NCBI GenBank assembly: GCA_030452225.1
Contig: JAKDMP010000003.1
Location: forward strand, 1-40,266
Length of the DNA: 40,266 nucleotides
DNA from: Gammaproteobacteria bacterium
Lineage (GTDB): Bacteria; Pseudomonadota; Gammaproteobacteria; JAKDMP01
Direction of reading: 5' to 3'
Part shown: positions 2,880-24,918 of the stretch, in pieces
Layout: each line of letters begins with the position of its first letter
Position numbering within the stretch: position 1 is the stretch's first letter
Translations under genes and position numbers: made by a program
The notes under the pieces: model-generated
The model's database searches: none
Seen by the model: only the letters and a program-made list of their open reading frames with translations
What the model was told of the DNA's origin: nothing

Positions 2880-4661
2880 ATGAAATGCAAATTCGGAGTC
2901 ATCGGTGCGCTGGGAATTTCGCTCCTGATTGCCGGTTGCGGTGGAGGTAGTCTGAACGGAGGCGATGAGCCGCCGCCCCCGATCGAGTCGGCAGTCCAGC
3001 TTGGCAGCGTCGTCGGCGGCGCGTTCCAGGCAGGGGTACTGGAAATAACTACTCCACAATTGTCGGCGGGCGGCTCGACGACCGTCTCGGCAGCGTTGCA
3101 ATACACCGATGGTACGCCGTACACGGGCTCCGCCACCATCACGTTTACTTCTTCCTGCTACCAGAACGGACTGGCAACTTTTACGGTCGACGGCGAGGCA
3201 ACCAACGCTGTGACCACGGCCACCGGACAGGCAAATATTACTTATTCGGCCAAAGGTTGCAGCGGGTCGGATACGATCACCGCGACGACCAGCATTGACG
3301 CCGACACCCTGACCGCCACCGGCGTTGTCACGGTGGCGCCGGCCAGCGTGGGATTCATCCAGTTCGTTTCCGCCACCCCCGATATCATCTCCTTGAATGG
3401 CACCGGGGGGCCGCAGACCTCGACGGTGATTTTCCAGGTCACAAACTCTTCCGGCGGACCCGTACCCGGAGCCAGAGTGGAGTTTTCACTCGACACAACG
3501 GTCGGCGGCATTACCCTGGCGCCCTCGAGCGCCACCACGGGCAACAACGGCCAGGCGCAAACGATTGTAAGGGCGGGAACGCAGCACACCACCGTGCGCG
3601 TGACGGCCACCGTCCACACCGACGACGGCAGAACCATCTCCACCCAGTCGCCGGGGATCGTCATCAGCACCGGTATTCCGACGCAGAAGCATTTCTCGCT
3701 TTCCCTCTCGAAGCATAATCTGGAAGGCTTCAATACCGACGGCCTGACCTCGAGCGTGCAGGTCATTCTTTCCGATCGGTTCGGCAATCCGGTTCCGGAT
3801 GGCACCCAGATCGCATTTACCACCAATGGCGGGCAGATCGGTCCATCGTGTACTACCCTTGGCGGTAGTTGCTCGGTACCTTGGACGAGCGCCAATCCAC
3901 GCCCCTCAAACGGCCCTCTGTCCGTCATCGGGCATGCGACGATTCTTGCCTATGCCACCGGCGAGGAGAGTTTTACCGACGTCAACGGCGACGGCATCTT
4001 CAACGTCGCGAACGGAGTAGCGGATACGTTCAGTCTGGTCCCGAATCCGGGGGCGCCGAACAATCCCGGCGACAATTTCTACGGCATGCCGACGGCGGAC
4101 GAAATTGGAGAGGTGTACCTGGACCAGAATCAGAACGGGGCATACGATCTGGGGGAATTCTTCTTCGACTTCAACCATGACAGCGTGCGCAACAACCCCG
4201 GCTGGGAGCTGGCCGCCAAGGGCGCTCGTCAATATCACGGTTACGGTTGCGAGGGGCCGGTCCCGGTCCCGGATCCGAACAACCCGGGTGCAACGATCCC
4301 GGTCCAATGCGGAACCTCGACGGTGGGCGTGGGGCTGGAGGATTGCATCGTAATGACGACTTCGGCCGTCGTTATCAGCGGGCCGGGCAACCTCAATCCC
4401 GGCCAGAGCGTCACGTATTCCGTGTCGGATTTGAACGGCAACGTACCGCCGGCGGGCATGCAGTTTACCATCCTTGCCAATGGCGCCGACGCGAGCGTCC
4501 TGCAGGAGGAGGTGCCCGATATCGGGGGTTGCCCCATACCGCCCGCCGCCTACACGATCAATGTCACCGTTTCCGCTACGTCCCAGCCGGGAAGCTTTCG
4601 AATCCAGGCCGTATCCCCCCAAGGGCTCGTGAGTTACAGCAACGCGATCACCGTGAACTGA
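2880..4661 (+). CDS. Multi-domain Ig-like (invasin/Big-type) lipoprotein with EF-hand-like loops
   Basis: I do not recognise this as a named pilus gene. ATG 2880 is chosen over ATG 2868 because GGAG at 2870-2873 sits 6 nt upstream; the protein is 593 residues. It starts with a lipoprotein signal (SLLIAGC, Cys20), then a Gly/Pro-rich tether. Several Ig-like beta domains follow, with bacterial Ig phrases such as LSAGGSTTVSA, DGTPYTGSATITF, PVPGARVEFSL, NNGQAQTIVRAG, DRFGNPVPDGTQIAF and NPGQSVTYSV. Between the third and last Ig domains, residues 367-438 carry three Asp/Asn loops of EF-hand or dockerin type: DVNGDGIFN (367), DQNQNGAYDLGE (415) and DFNHDSVRN (430). Several cysteines suggest disulfides outside the cytoplasm. 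It is 36 nt after pilQ and runs in the same direction, so it is probably co-transcribed. A calcium-dependent adhesin or pilus accessory role is an inference from position and motifs. Confidence 0.8.
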   Translation: MKCKFGVIGALGISLLIAGCGGGSLNGGDEPPPPIESAVQLGSVVGGAFQAGVLEITTPQLSAGGSTTVSAALQYTDGTPYTGSATITFTSSCYQNGLATFTVDGEATNAVTTATGQANITYSAKGCSGSDTITATTSIDADTLTATGVVTVAPASVGFIQFVSATPDIISLNGTGGPQTSTVIFQVTNSSGGPVPGARVEFSLDTTVGGITLAPSSATTGNNGQAQTIVRAGTQHTTVRVTATVHTDDGRTISTQSPGIVISTGIPTQKHFSLSLSKHNLEGFNTDGLTSSVQVILSDRFGNPVPDGTQIAFTTNGGQIGPSCTTLGGSCSVPWTSANPRPSNGPLSVIGHATILAYATGEESFTDVNGDGIFNVANGVADTFSLVPNPGAPNNPGDNFYGMPTADEIGEVYLDQNQNGAYDLGEFFFDFNHDSVRNNPGWELAAKGARQYHGYGCEGPVPVPDPNNPGATIPVQCGTSTVGVGLEDCIVMTTSAVVISGPGNLNPGQSVTYSVSDLNGNVPPAGMQFTILANGADASVLQEEVPDIGGCPIPPAAYTINVTVSATSQPGSFRIQAVSPQGLVSYSNAITVN

Positions 4662-20029: not shown

Positions 20030-21058
20030 ATGAAAGGCAAACGGCGCAAATCTCCGGCCGAGTGGCTATCCGCCCGCTGGTACGGGACCCGGCCGGCGTG
20101 GTTCCTGTGGCCCCTCGCCGTCCTGTTTCGTCTCCTCGCATGGCTGCGCCGGAGCTTGTACCGGCTTGGCCTGTTTCGGACCCGGCAGGTTGCGGCCCGG
20201 GTGGTGGTGGTCGGCAACATCACGGTGGGCGGCAGCGGCAAGACGCCGCTGGTCGCATGGCTGGCGCGCGAGCTTTCGGCCGCGGGCGTAAAAACCGGCA
20301 TCGTAACGCGCGGTTATGGAGGCAACCGCAACGACGTTCGCCTGATCCGCACCGATGCTTCGGCCGATGAGGCGGGCGACGAACCCTTGTGGCTGGCGCG
20401 TGAAACGGCGGTTCCCGTGGTCGCGGGGCGGGACCGCGCGGCGGCGGCCAGGTATCTTGTCGAGAGCCATCGTCCCGACGTGGTTGTCTCCGATGACGGG
20501 TTGCAGCACTATCGGTTGGTCCGCGACGTGGAGATTGCGGCCATCGATGCGCGGCGTGGATTCGGAAACGGGGCCCTCCTGCCGGCCGGGCCGTTGCGTG
20601 AAATGCCTTCTCGGCTCGAACGGGTGAATGCAGTCGTTCTCAAGGGGCGCGGACAGGTTGCATTACCGCCCGGCGTGACGGTATTCAACATGCTCCTGAG
20701 TGTATCCCGCGCGCTGCCCGTTGGCGGAGGCGAGTCCGTTCCCTTGGCGCACTTTCGTGGCAAACCCGTGCATGCCGTGGCGGCGATTGCCGATCCGGAA
20801 GGTTTTTTTGTTGTACTGGAAGCGGCCGGCCTCGAGGTCGAACGTCACCCGTTGCCCGATCACGCGCCGATCGACTCGACCCTCGAGATGCTCGGCACGG
20901 GCCGGCCCATTCTTCTCACCGACAAGGATGCGGCGCGGCTCGCCGAGCGGCCCGTCAACGCCTGGCGGGTGCCGCTTGCGATAGGATTTTCCGGGGAGGA
21001 TGCCGCAGGCTTGCTGGCACTCGCCGGCGGGCCGCATTTTTTCATGGAGGAAAGCTGA
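20030..21058 (+). CDS. lpxK: Tetraacyldisaccharide 4'-kinase
   Basis: LpxK phosphorylates the 4' position of the lipid A disaccharide precursor at the inner membrane. ATG 20030 gives 342 residues. The N-terminal hydrophobic helix ([18 protein letters not shown]) associates with the membrane; the P-loop is [19 protein letters not shown]; further family segments are [46 protein letters not shown] and the late LLTDKDAAR. It starts 28 nt after msbA and shares one base with the next gene (TGATG). Confidence 0.95.
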
Positions 21059-21246
21059 TGGATTCCAAACTGCTTGACATACTCGTCTGCCCGCTCTGCA
21101 AGGGCCCGTTGCAGTACGACAGGAAGGCCGGAGAGTTGATCTGCCGTGCCGATCGTCTGGCCTTTCCAATTCGCGATGACATCCCCGTCATGCTCGAAGA
21201 GGAAGCGCGCAAGGTAGAACTCGAAGAGCTGGACAAATACAAGTGA
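21058..21246 (+). CDS. ycaR: Trm112/YcaR family small protein
   Basis: A 62-residue protein of the UPF0434/Trm112 family, typically encoded between lpxK and kdsB in gammaproteobacteria. It has [18 protein letters not shown] (a CPxC knuckle) and the conserved [17 protein letters not shown] ending. Only one Cys pair plus Cys31 (LICRADR) is visible. In eukaryotes Trm112 stabilises methyltransferases; the bacterial role is not settled. It overlaps lpxK by 1 nt and kdsB by 4 nt. Confidence 0.92.
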
Positions 21247-21998
21247 GCGTACGGGTCGTCATTCCCGCACGCTACGGCTCCAGCCGCTTGCCCGGGAAGC
21301 CGCTGGTCGAAATAGCGGGCAAGCCGCTCGTTTGCCATGTTTGCGAGCGGGGACTGGAAAGCCGGGCCGAAGAGGTCTGGCTGGCAACCGACGACGAACG
21401 TATTGCCGCGGCAGTCGAGGACATGCCCGTTCGCGTGGCGCTGACTTCCGGTGTGCACGCGTCGGGTACCGATCGCATCGCCGAAGTCGCCGCGCGCGAG
21501 AATTGGGAAGACGAGGATATCGTGGTCAACCTGCAGGGCGACGAGCCCCTGATGCCCGCGGATGCCATCGATGCCGTGGCCGCCTCGCTGCAGGCTAACC
21601 CGGAAGCCGAGATGGCAACCTTGGCCGTGCGTTTGTATGAAGCGGAATTGTTTGCCGACCCTCATGTGGTCAAGCTGGTCACGGATACGAACGGCGATGC
21701 GCTTTATTTCAGCCGTGCCCCGATTCCTCGCCCGCGAGAAGCGGATCGCGAGTTGCCCGCCGAAGCGCTGCGGCATGTCGGCTTGTATGCCTATCGCGTC
21801 GCCGCTCTTGCTCGACTGGCTGCCGAACCGCCGTGTGCGATGGAACGCGAAGAGGGCCTCGAGCAGTTGCGCGCTCTGTGGCTGGGCATGCGCATCCGCG
21901 TCGAGGTGGCGGACGAGATCCCGATGACCTCGGTGGACACGGCGAAGGACATTGCGCGCACCGAACGATGGCTCGATGGGCAAACCCCCGAAACCTGA
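21243..21998 (+). CDS. kdsB: 3-deoxy-manno-octulosonate cytidylyltransferase
   Basis: KdsB makes CMP-Kdo from CTP and Kdo for LPS inner core. The 251-residue protein starts at GTG 21243, in the stop of the preceding gene (GTGA). Motifs are the nucleotide-binding [38 protein letters not shown] with the metal-binding Asp, [20 protein letters not shown] and [14 protein letters not shown]. It ends the exbB-exbD-msbA-lpxK-ycaR-kdsB run; the next 559 nt contain only repeats. Confidence 0.96.
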
Positions 21999-22005
21999 CA
22001 ACGGA

Positions 22006-22034
22006 GTCGCAGGAGCGGCCCATATGCCCGCGAC
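22006..22034 (+). repeat. REP-like palindrome (copy a)
   Basis: The sequence has the AGGAGCG…CGCGAC pattern of proteobacterial REP elements; GTCGC and GCGAC at the ends can pair, with an inner GGC/GCC step. It starts 8 nt after the kdsB stop and may act as an mRNA 3' stabiliser. Confidence 0.55.
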
Positions 22035-22050
22035 CGGGGCGACGACATTG

Positions 22051-22076
22051 GTCGCAAGCAAGCTCTCGCTCCCGCC
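22051..22076 (-). repeat. REP-like palindrome (copy b, inverted)
   Basis: Read on the minus strand it gives GGGAGCGAGAGCTTGCTTGCGA, i.e. the GGAGCG…GCGA pattern in the opposite direction to copy a, 16 nt away. Such head-to-tail or inverted pairing is typical of BIME clusters. Confidence 0.5.
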
Positions 22077-22119
22077 GGAAACTCTCCCGGCAGTAGAGTT
22101 AGGGCGTCTCTGATTGATT

Positions 22120-22285
22120 CGTCATTCCCGCGAAAGCGCGACTGCGAAGGCGGAACGCCGGAGCGAACATGTGCGAAGCACATGTCCTGAGGGGCGAGCG
22201 ACGCAAGTCGCGAGTAATCCATCTTCTTGATTGGGCTGGATTCCCGCCGCAGCCTGCCCCCGCGAAGGCGGGGGCGGGAATGACG
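22120..22285. mobile_element. MITE-like element with CGTCATTCCCGC terminal inverted repeats
   Basis: A perfect 12-bp inverted repeat (CGTCATTCCCGC at 22120-22131, GCGGGAATGACG at 22274-22285) bounds 166 bp without coding capacity. Inside are two further hairpins: ACATGTGC-gaa-GCACATGT (22167-22185) and GCGAC-gcaa-GTCGC (22198-22211), and a G/C-rich region next to the right end. Repeats ending in GTCATTCCCGC are widespread in proteobacterial intergenic DNA. No clear target-site duplication is visible. Confidence 0.6.
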
Positions 22286-22351
22286 GACAATGAATTGTTC
22301 AGAAATGCCTTTGTAGATACTCTGTTCCAAGTCAAGCCCACTCAAAAGCGA

Positions 22352-22428
22352 GCAGGGCGGACAAGCCTGCACAGCAGGCGCATCCATCGAATCCACACCG
22401 GCGGATGCGCTGTGCTTATCCGCCCTGC
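22352..22428. repeat. Long imperfect palindrome with GCAGGGCGGA arms
   Basis: The left arm (from 22352, GCAGGGCGGACAAGC … GGCGCATCC) matches the reverse complement of the right arm (ending 22428, GGATGCGCTGTGCTTATCC then GCCCTGC), with a 5-nt insertion in the left arm. It resembles the dispersed GGGCGGATAAGC-GCATCCGCC type palindromes of gammaproteobacteria. Confidence 0.55.
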
Positions 22429-22430
22429 AG

Positions 22431-22456
22431 CAGGAGCGGACGTCCCGGGCGCGATA
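22431..22456 (+). repeat. REP-like palindrome (copy c)
   Basis: CAGGAGCGGACGTCCCGGGC followed by GCGAT fits the AGGAGCG…CGCGA pattern and directly abuts the preceding palindrome. Confidence 0.5.
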
Positions 22457-22480
22457 CGACGTTGGAATGTGTTCATGCCC

Positions 22481-22505
22481 ATCGCGACGGGGCCGTCACT
22501 CCTGC
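22481..22505 (-). repeat. REP-like palindrome (copy d, inverted)
   Basis: On the minus strand it reads GCAGGAGTGACGGCCCCGTC then GCGAT. GACGG and CCGTC form the stem. Orientation is opposite to copies c and e. Confidence 0.55.
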
Positions 22506-22522
22506 CCGGGCCCTTAATCGGG

Positions 22523-22546
22523 TGTAGCAGCAAGCTTGCTCGCGAT
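22523..22546 (+). repeat. REP-like palindrome (copy e), next to the rne 3' end
   Basis: TGTAGCAGCAAGCTTGCT followed by CGCGAT holds the 12-bp palindrome AGCAAGCTTGCT and the CGCGA end. It lies 11 nt past the rne stop codon and may serve as a 3' end structure for the minus-strand transcript. Confidence 0.5.
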
Positions 22547-22557
22547 TTTTCCGGCGT

Positions 22558-24918
22558 TCAGCCCCTGTCGTCGTGACCCGCGGACTCGCTGTTCCTTTCC
22601 TGCTCAAACAGGGCGGCCAGGCGCGGCGTTTCCTCGGTCGGCGGCCCCTTCCTCTCGGCCCGGCCCGCATGGGGCTTGCCCGGAGCCTGTCCCGGATCGG
22701 TTTGGGCCGCAGAGGTGACGAGCGACTTGCCGGCGGCTTTCTCGTCTTGCATGCTCTGCGCCTTCCCGGAACCCTGGTCGTCGGATGGCCGTTCGTTGGA
22801 CTGGCTGTTCCCATTGCCGGCGCTGCGGCGCCTGCGCCCGCCGCGGCGGCCACGGCGCGTTCGGGAGCGCCCGGAGCCTTCGTTGCCGGCGGTCGATCGG
22901 GTCTCACTGCCTGCTCGGGATGACGCTGATTCCTCGGCCTTTGCAGTGGCGCTGCCTTGTGCGGGGGGCTGCTTTTTGTCGTTGGGTTTTCGTGCGGCCT
23001 GCTTCCGGTTGCTGCTTCCGGCCGGATCCCCGGACGGTGCGTTGCGCGCACGGTTCCCGCCGGCGCGTTGCGCCCCGCCGCGCGAATCGCGCTTTGCGTT
23101 GTTCGAAGCCGGGCGTTGCCTGCGGCTGCGGGTAGCGTTTTCGCCGCGTTGGCCGGAGTCGCTGCGACGGTTGCGGTTCACGCTGGATCGTTTGCGTTGT
23201 GCGGGTGCCGCAGAACCGGATCCGCTTGTATCCTGCTCCTGCGATGCCAGCCTTCCCAGCAACCGCGTGAACCAGCCATTGCGCGAGCCTGCCTTGGCCT
23301 TGGCCTCGGGGGCGGGAGCGGGCGGCGGGGTTGCCGGCCGCAGGGCGCTGACGGCGGGCTGCTCGGCCGGTGCGGGCTTGCCCGGCATGGCGGGCGCTTC
23401 GGGTTCTTCCGCCAGTTCGTGCGAGGGCAGCACCTGGGCGCCAAGCTGGTCGCTGCGGATTCTTTCCACCCGGTAGTTGGGCGTGTCCATGTGGGGGTTG
23501 GGAATGATCACGATGCCGATACACAGCTGGTTTTCTATTTCCACCAGATCCGTCCGCTTCTCGTTGACGAGAAAGGTGGCGACGCTTACCGGCAACTCCG
23601 CCGTGATTCGGGCGGTTCGTTCCTTCAGTGCTTCCTGTTGAATGTGGCGCAGGATCGAGATGGCGAGCGATTCGACCGAACGGATCATGCCCTTGCCGGA
23701 GCAACGCGGGCAGGGTTCGAATACCGCCTCGGAAAGCGCCGGGCGCAGCCGTTGGCGCGACATCTCCAGCAGGCCGAAGCGCGAGATGCGCCCGATCTGG
23801 ATGCGCGCCCGATCGAGGGCGAGCGACTGGTGCAACTTGTTTTCGACCTCGCGCAGGTTGCGGGCGTTGTTCATGTCGATGAAATCCACCACAATCAGGC
23901 CGCCGATGTCGCGCAACCTGAGTTGGCGCGCAATCTCCTCGGCGGCTTCGAGATTGGTGTTGAGCGCGGTCTCGTTGATGTCGCTGCCCTGGGTGGCGCG
24001 CGCCGAGTTGACGTCCACCGCGACCAGCGCTTCGGTTTGATCGAGTACCAGGGCGCCGCCGGACGGCAGGCGAACCTGGCGCTGGAAGGCGGCATCGATC
24101 TGGCTTTCGATCTGAAAGCGGGTGAACAGCGGAAGCCGATCCTCGTGCCGCTTGAGCTTGCCCAGATGCTGCGGCATGACCATCTCGACAAATCCGCGCG
24201 CTTCCTCGAGTACGTCGGCATCGTCAATGACGACCTCGCCGATATCCTTTGAAAAGTGGTCGCGCAGCGCGCGGATGATGACGTTCGATTCCTGGTAGAT
24301 CAGGAAGGGCGCCGAACGGTCGTCGGCCGCATGGCAGATTGCCTCCCAGATGTTCTTGAGGTAATCGAGGTCCCACTGGAGTTGTTCGAGGCTGCGCCCG
24401 CCCCCGGCGGTACGCACGATGACGCCGGCGCCCTGTGGCAGGACGAGCTCCGAAAGCAGGCTGCGGGTCTCGTCGCGATCGGCGCCCTCGATTTTGCTCG
24501 ACACGCCCCCGGCACTGGGGTTGTTGGGCATGAGTACGAGATAGCGGCCGGCAAGACTGACGAAGGTCGTGAGTGCTGCGCCCTTGGTGCCGCGCTCTTC
24601 CTTGGTCACCTGGACAATGACTTCCTGGCCTTCCCTGACGGCATCCTTGATGGTCAGTCGGGTACCGGATTCGGATTTGCTCTGGTGGTAGGCCGGCGCA
24701 ATTTCGCGCAGCGGCAGGAAGCCGTGGCGCTCGGCCCCGTACTCGACGAAGCAGGCCTCGAGGCTGGGTTCCACCCGCGAGACGCGGCCCTTGTAAATAT
24801 TGTCCTTCTTCTGGCCGTGGCCGGGGACTTCGATATCCAGATCGTACAGCGTCTGGCCATCGACGATTGCGACGCGCAGCTCTTCGGGCTGGGTCGCATT
24901 GATCAACATACGTTTCAT
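22558..24918 (-). CDS. rne: Ribonuclease E
   Basis: A 786-residue RNase E/G family endonuclease, the core of mRNA decay and rRNA/tRNA processing. The catalytic half (1-500) starts MKRMLINATQPEELRVAIVD, has the S1 domain (about 37-125), the 5'-sensor/RNase H-like regions, the metal ligands Asp302 (AVDVNSAR) and Asp345 (VVDFIDMNNARNLREVE, positions 343-359) and the Zn-link Cys403/Cys406 (CPRCSGKG). These are shifted by one from E. coli Asp303/Asp346/Cys404/Cys407. The C-terminal half is low-complexity with arginine-rich RNA-binding stretches (GRSRTRRGRRGGRRRRS) and is shorter than in E. coli. The tail marks it as RNase E, not RNase G. Its long leader and divergent rluC match the enteric arrangement. 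Confidence 0.96.
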   Translation of the reverse strand: MKRMLINATQPEELRVAIVDGQTLYDLDIEVPGHGQKKDNIYKGRVSRVEPSLEACFVEYGAERHGFLPLREIAPAYHQSKSESGTRLTIKDAVREGQEVIVQVTKEERGTKGAALTTFVSLAGRYLVLMPNNPSAGGVSSKIEGADRDETRSLLSELVLPQGAGVIVRTAGGGRSLEQLQWDLDYLKNIWEAICHAADDRSAPFLIYQESNVIIRALRDHFSKDIGEVVIDDADVLEEARGFVEMVMPQHLGKLKRHEDRLPLFTRFQIESQIDAAFQRQVRLPSGGALVLDQTEALVAVDVNSARATQGSDINETALNTNLEAAEEIARQLRLRDIGGLIVVDFIDMNNARNLREVENKLHQSLALDRARIQIGRISRFGLLEMSRQRLRPALSEAVFEPCPRCSGKGMIRSVESLAISILRHIQQEALKERTARITAELPVSVATFLVNEKRTDLVEIENQLCIGIVIIPNPHMDTPNYRVERIRSDQLGAQVLPSHELAEEPEAPAMPGKPAPAEQPAVSALRPATPPPAPAPEAKAKAGSRNGWFTRLLGRLASQEQDTSGSGSAAPAQRKRSSVNRNRRSDSGQRGENATRSRRQRPASNNAKRDSRGGAQRAGGNRARNAPSGDPAGSSNRKQAARKPNDKKQPPAQGSATAKAEESASSRAGSETRSTAGNEGSGRSRTRRGRRGGRRRRSAGNGNSQSNERPSDDQGSGKAQSMQDEKAAGKSLVTSAAQTDPGQAPGKPHAGRAERKGPPTEETPRLAALFEQERNSESAGHDDRG

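Follow-up and report, generated by a model that had tools for sequence, protein, structure and literature searches.

The described systems closest to the repeats treated here are REPINs or BIMEs with their REPtrons, CGTC-1 palindromes and MITEs of the IS5 type. In the available text of Di Nocera et al. (2013, PMC3733652), CGTC-1 palindromes are defined by a CGTC tag, an 8-bp stem starting with AT, a 4-nt loop and head-to-head dimers; CGTC repeats seem to have no dedicated transposase, and REPtrons can be absent. In the later papers inspected for CGTC repeats, with subscription journals outside the coverage, these repeats came up only through a reference to Di Nocera et al., and no treatment of their mobilisation was seen. 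The usual IS5 target duplication is CTAG, as cited in the available text of PMC10379815, which itself reports an 8-bp exception.

The window analysed was a 40,266-nt stretch of contig JAKDMP010000003.1 from a gammaproteobacterium (GCA_030452225.1, an assembly of 2.315 Mb in 231 contigs, 96.9% complete). In this window kdsB (+ strand; profile TIGR00466, 246 bits) ends at 21998 and rne for RNase E (− strand; TIGR00757, 524 bits) ends at 22558, and these convergent ends bound a gap of exactly 21999–22557 (559 bp). A sequence-only reading had described a dense palindromic repeat cluster there, and the gap is indeed a real, dense and mostly ordinary repeat mosaic of known kinds. Four dispersed repeat types were found in it: two head-to-head pairs of GTAGGAGCG-family REPs, a single REP of that family, a GTAGGGYGGATAAGC REPIN preceded by a 40-nt leader and a 207-bp MITE. 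From left to right they run as D pair, MITE A, leader with REPIN B, C pair and single REP E, occupying nearly the whole gap with little sequence left over. The features were as follows.

22009–22033, + strand: D1, GTAGGAGCG-family REP with tag GCAG (sequence, family count, stem covariation)
22052–22075, − strand: D2, inverted partner of D1, head-to-head (sequence)
22099–22102, no strand: left 4-bp target duplication of A, TTAG; the right copy is TTTG at 22310–22313 (3 of 4 positions match)
22103–22309, + strand: A, MITE with IS5-like ends, its body a head-to-head CGTC-1 palindrome dimer (copy alignment)
22120–22285, no strand: the 166-bp element first described, the CGTC dimer between CGTCATTCCCGC and GCGGGAATGACG (inverted-repeat search)
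22140–22221, + strand: four-hairpin segment within the 5′ CGTC unit (copies, alignment, covariation)
22240–22285, − strand: expanded 3′ CGTC unit (similar 46–56-bp arms in genomes G046, G071 and G184 of other families)
22313–22350, + strand: leader of B (GTAGATACTCTGTTC...), conserved upstream of other B dimers
22352–22428, + strand: B, REPIN, inverted pair of GTAGGGYGGATAAGC..GCATCCRCC REPs at 22352–22388 and 22400–22428 (inverted-repeat search, pattern count, copies)
22430–22454, + strand: C1, GTAGGAGCG-family REP, tail-to-tail against B (sequence, family count, B–C joint count)
22482–22505, − strand: C2, inverted partner of C1 (sequence; one homologous C copy at G000:C109)
22524–22545, + strand: E, single REP GTAGCAGCAAGCTTGCTCGCGA (sequence)

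Thus all five REP-like units that had been reported in both orientations were recovered (D1, D2, C1, C2 and E). Searching the whole gap against its own genome gave at least 45 matches, with 40 of 193 candidates scored. Family counts in the genome, each against a reversed-pattern control, were 59 versus 2 exact matches for the GTAGGAGCG REP pattern, 28 versus 0 exact matches for the B REP pattern (GTAGGRYGGATAAGC..GCATCCRYC), 51 versus 0 for the CGTC hairpin pattern, and 38 versus 0 for the MITE end (GGAAnCTCTGATTnATTCGTCATTCC, up to two mismatches), two of these 38 being both ends of one element on contig C20. The motifs are therefore not unique in the genome, and the idea that the 77-bp palindrome is a unique sequence was rejected.

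The gap very probably combines non-autonomous mobile DNA of two kinds that are not related to each other, namely RAYT-copied REPINs/BIMEs and an IS5-like MITE moved by a DDE transposase. This reading draws on several observations: the units recur across the genome and are organised in pairs, stems covary, a RAYT gene is flanked by its cognate REPs, and the MITE has inverted ends and 4-bp duplications. It is unlikely that the gap is instead kept as a functional RNA or DNA device, i.e. a bidirectional transcription end, an mRNA 3′-end protection or a gyrase/IHF binding site. The site does lie between convergent gene ends and its DNA folds strongly (z = −6.24; none of 100 dinucleotide shuffles was equally stable), and REPs are described downstream of genes in the available text of PMC3733652, but dozens of other, unrelated sites carry these elements too. 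An ordinary terminator was rejected, as 0 terminator-like sites were found versus 0.6 in shuffles. A known RNA was also rejected: the Rfam scan gave sub-threshold hits only, the best being a weak resemblance to the nucleoid-associated naRNA4 over the B palindrome, whose 27.7 bits are far under the gathering score of 59.5. The gap probably has no specific local function other than as a place between convergent genes where such elements are tolerated.

The inner stems of the GTAGGAGCG REPs vary yet pair. Among the 47 of 59 REPs with a 9-nt inner part (the other 12, of other lengths, were left out), three complementary pairs were kept in 42, versus 12.8 when right halves were dealt at random, and four stem types were common. 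C, D and E are thus GTAG-1-like REPs, being tagged, multicopy palindromes with compensatory stems. The Y1_Tnp profile had three matches in the genome, two of them above the curated cut-off, and none of the three was seen beside GTAGGAGCG REPs. Since the assembly is in 231 contigs, a RAYT gene for this family may be missing from it. The GTAGGAGCG family is apparently an orphan, next to a REPIN with its own RAYT in one genome.

The “separate 77-bp palindrome” of the sequence-only reading was found at 22352–22428, but it belongs to a larger unit, an inverted REP pair with a conserved leader. B is an inverted doublet making one hairpin, and its REPs are tagged imperfect palindromes of GTAG type in many copies, the window copy carrying GCAG tags and being the one copy whose intergenic position was checked. 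In the loci examined, the leader, beginning GTAGATACTCTG, precedes 15 of 26 B dimers; of the 11 in which none was recognised, three lie at the RAYT locus. This RAYT gene lies on contig C25 (L038:238–810) and scored 195.5 bits with NF047646, the NCBI profile for REP-associated tyrosine transposase (cut-off 80). B-type GTAGGGTGGATAAGC REPs flank it on both sides (C25:113–261 and 872–977), so that B, as expected of a REPIN, has its matching RAYT gene set between REPs of the B type. The prediction of a RAYT-type transposase or other mobiliser elsewhere in the genome was thus borne out for B, but most likely does not extend to MITE A.

Two other Y1 genes were inspected. Contig C141 has another RAYT-like gene (L039, about 1275–770, − strand), which contains an internal TAG and lies amid a different REP type (GTAGGCCGGGATAAGC); it is likely a decayed REPtron. 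The Y1 gene on contig C110 (L037, 536–1237) was rejected as a RAYT, having 58.9 bits (below the cut-off of 80) and other flanking repeats. Stretches like GTGGTCTGTCCCCAATTTC are repeated downstream of it and GTGCCATTCGGGACAGACCA is found on its upstream side, possibly as terminal repeats belonging to this gene.

Of the 26 B dimers in the loci examined, 11 have a GTAGGAGCG-type tag no more than 22 nt behind them, versus 305 of 20,000 random stretches, indicating that B plus C is a recurrent composite. The gap had also been taken for a landing site for repeated insertion; the genome-wide repeats agree with this, but B and C were not independent landings. Beyond the leader and the C joint, the flanks of B copies are largely unrelated. 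A search of B against plasmid sequences gave no match.

For A, the sequence-only reading had proposed a 166-bp MITE-like element with 12-bp perfect terminal repeats and internal hairpins. That element was found at 22120–22285, but alignment of copies moved the ends outward to a mobile unit of 207 bp (22103–22309) and revealed 4-bp target duplications. A recurs over most of its length at five other places in the genome with 93–96% identity; a typical MITE copy is about 110 bp and has none of the extra segments of the window copy. Most copies carry the terminal inverted repeat GGAAnCTCTGA on both sides, and the ends of the window copy have diverged (GGCGTCTCTGA and TCAGAAATGCC). A second end was recognisable at 25 of the 38 MITE end sites in the loci examined, and these 25 copies formed the test set for duplications, the 13 other end sites being left out. 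The count of 25 includes the reverse row of L024, although this is probably a false pairing. Agreement was seen at 72 of 100 duplication positions, versus 46 by permutation (p < 1e-4, 25 copies, one offset tested), and exact 4-bp duplications in 8 of the 25, versus 1.2. The target consensus was YYAR (e.g. CTAG, CTAA, CCAA and TCAA), a palindromic target that inflates chance matches, for which the permutation controls. The A family thus has the 4-bp CTAG-like duplication of the IS5 group, and the flanks of its copies are unrelated right up to the duplications. The copies L066, L067 and L081 sit at contig ends; the assembly probably breaks at copies, so the MITE copy number is underestimated. 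Against plasmids A gave one match, of 27 bp only, to a Sphingomonas plasmid. One exact viral-contig match to the MITE end had neither CGTC stem nor second end and was judged to be chance.

The 4-bp duplications and IS5-like ends indicate that a DDE-type transposase, rather than a RAYT, most likely moved A, and the supposition that a RAYT mobilised the MITE is most likely wrong. A parent IS5 transposase gene with the same ends (GGAAnCTCTGATT, GGAAnCTCTGATTnATTC) was not found in the assembly, where the DUF772 profile had 0 matches and the DDE_Tnp_1 profile matched only one fragment (44 profile positions, at a contig start) that nothing ties to the MITE ends. We therefore call A “IS5-like” and not an IS5 derivative. 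Assemblies of this kind often miss insertion sequences, so a missing IS5 enzyme is weak evidence. It is very unlikely that one or more RAYTs move all palindromes of the gap, A included: the genome does have three Y1_Tnp matches, and A is palindromic with REP-like CGTC units, but it has 4-bp duplications, and its inverted ends, each of about 11 bp, lie outside these units. Moreover, the stretches read around the three Y1 genes showed no adjoining CGTC unit, and according to the available text of PMC3733652 CGTC units do not flank any RAYT/IS200 gene.

The body of A has the CGTC tag, the 8-bp stem starting with AT, the 4-nt loop and the head-to-head dimers of CGTC-1 palindromes as defined in the available text of PMC3733652. 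Exact 46-bp spacing was found in 13 CGTC dimers, and all 13 carry an outer CTCTGATT-type MITE arm, although these MITE copies are related and so do not count as 13 independent events. The A body being a CGTC-1 dimer, CGTC palindromes would spread in the present genome as a MITE body and not via a REP-type enzyme. The outer arm was not seen on CGTC units of other families (read at G046, G023, G055 and G071), so this link is established for the present genome only. An expanded CGTC arm (..CCGCAGCCTGCCCCCGCGAAGGCGGGG..; L007, L109, L110 and L112) occurs with 84–91% identity over 46–56 bp in other families of the class.

The nested segment, of about 80–82 nt, interrupts the 5′ CGTC stem, with GGGA of the stem on one side and ATCC on the other. 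The loci examined contain it at 18 places, two of them partial (L035, cut by a contig end, and L036) and two shortened or gapped (L034 and L070). Its four hairpins are kept in 14 copies (12 distinct), with 98.2% of pair cells standard. Three pairs changed on both sides, which 66 of 500 shuffles also reach; the covariation score was reached by 0 of 500. Among the best two candidates per genome in 368 other genomes of the class, the segment was not seen. Its travelling with the CGTC dimers is the most regular reading. We tentatively propose, as a possibility with somewhat less than even chances, that in this lineage a DDE transposase, making 4-bp duplications, spreads CGTC palindromes by moving an IS5-like MITE whose body they form, and that the four-hairpin segment is a further element entering CGTC units at one fixed stem point. 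How CGTC palindromes move was left open by Di Nocera et al.; given the clear ends and duplications of A, a DDE enzyme becomes an answer that can be tested, at any rate for this lineage.

Growth of the cluster by segmental duplication and recombination between repeats, not transposition, would suit the recurring B–C composites (11 of 26) and the insert-bearing CGTC units in dimers of several stem types, but is very unlikely given A copies with flanks unrelated up to the 4-bp duplications and B copies with flanks mostly unrelated outside the leader and C joint.

On the two-mobiliser reading, the GTAG-tagged REP pairs D, B and C and the single E would be REPINs/BIMEs that HUH/Y1 RAYTs copy in trans, in single-stranded form, the B type presumably being served by the product of the C25 gene. 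The tail-to-tail B–C joint would have arisen when a new REP landed at the tag of an older one. A putative DDE transposase, also acting in trans, would have inserted A just upstream of the B leader with a 4-bp duplication. The order of insertions in the gap is likewise a matter of reconstruction.

The surroundings of the gap differ in related genomes. In the family mate G001, kdsB is not beside rne, which is adjoined by a different gene. In G023 and G046 of the same class (L060 and L061), rne is adjoined by a gene that, from its sequence motif, we take to be low-molecular-weight protein phosphatase-like, and in G023 kdsB lies upstream of that gene. The phosphatase-like gene is absent from 21998–22558 of the window, and the kdsB–rne gap may mark its loss. 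KdsB searched against genome contigs gave one Saprospiraceae match (42%), useless as a sister gap. A phage search with 20500–24500 gave one 302-bp match (71%; query 3236–3537) within rne, and the gap was unmatched.

The repeats of the gap share with REPINs or BIMEs and their REPtrons, as described in the available texts of Bertels and Rainey (2011, PMC3116915) and Nunvar (2010, PMC2817692), the inverted GTAG-tagged REP pairs, the compensatory stems and a RAYT gene set between its cognate REPs; they differ in that B has a conserved 40-nt leader and is repeatedly joined tail-to-tail to a REP of a second family, for which no RAYT was seen. The GTAGGAGCG type is similar to REPs of Xanthomonas listed in a table by Nunvar (GTAGGAGCGCGCTCGCGCGCGA, in the available part of PMC2817692). 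With MITEs of IS5 type, A shares GGAA.. inverted ends, a 4-bp CTAG-like duplication, tens of copies and no coding capacity seen, whereas its body consists of CGTC palindromes and no autonomous partner was found in the assembly. An IS5-like MITE built of CGTC palindromes is a new variant, if a modest one. According to the available text of PMC5896051, QMITE2 of Coxiella burnetii is likewise a MITE containing a REP-class palindrome, but it holds a GTAG palindrome and has direct repeats of 7–11 nt, whereas A holds CGTC palindromes. As for the CGTC-1 palindromes themselves (PMC3733652, available text; including Neisseria dRS3), the A body shares their CGTC tag, ATTCCCGC stem with 4-nt loop, CCA-like tail and head-to-head dimers; unlike there, the dimers here are enclosed in a unit that resembles a transposon and has 4-bp duplications. 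What comes closest in that text is the case of H. neapolitanus, whose CGTC-1 dimers lie within 41-bp palindromes starting GGGaaGCTT.
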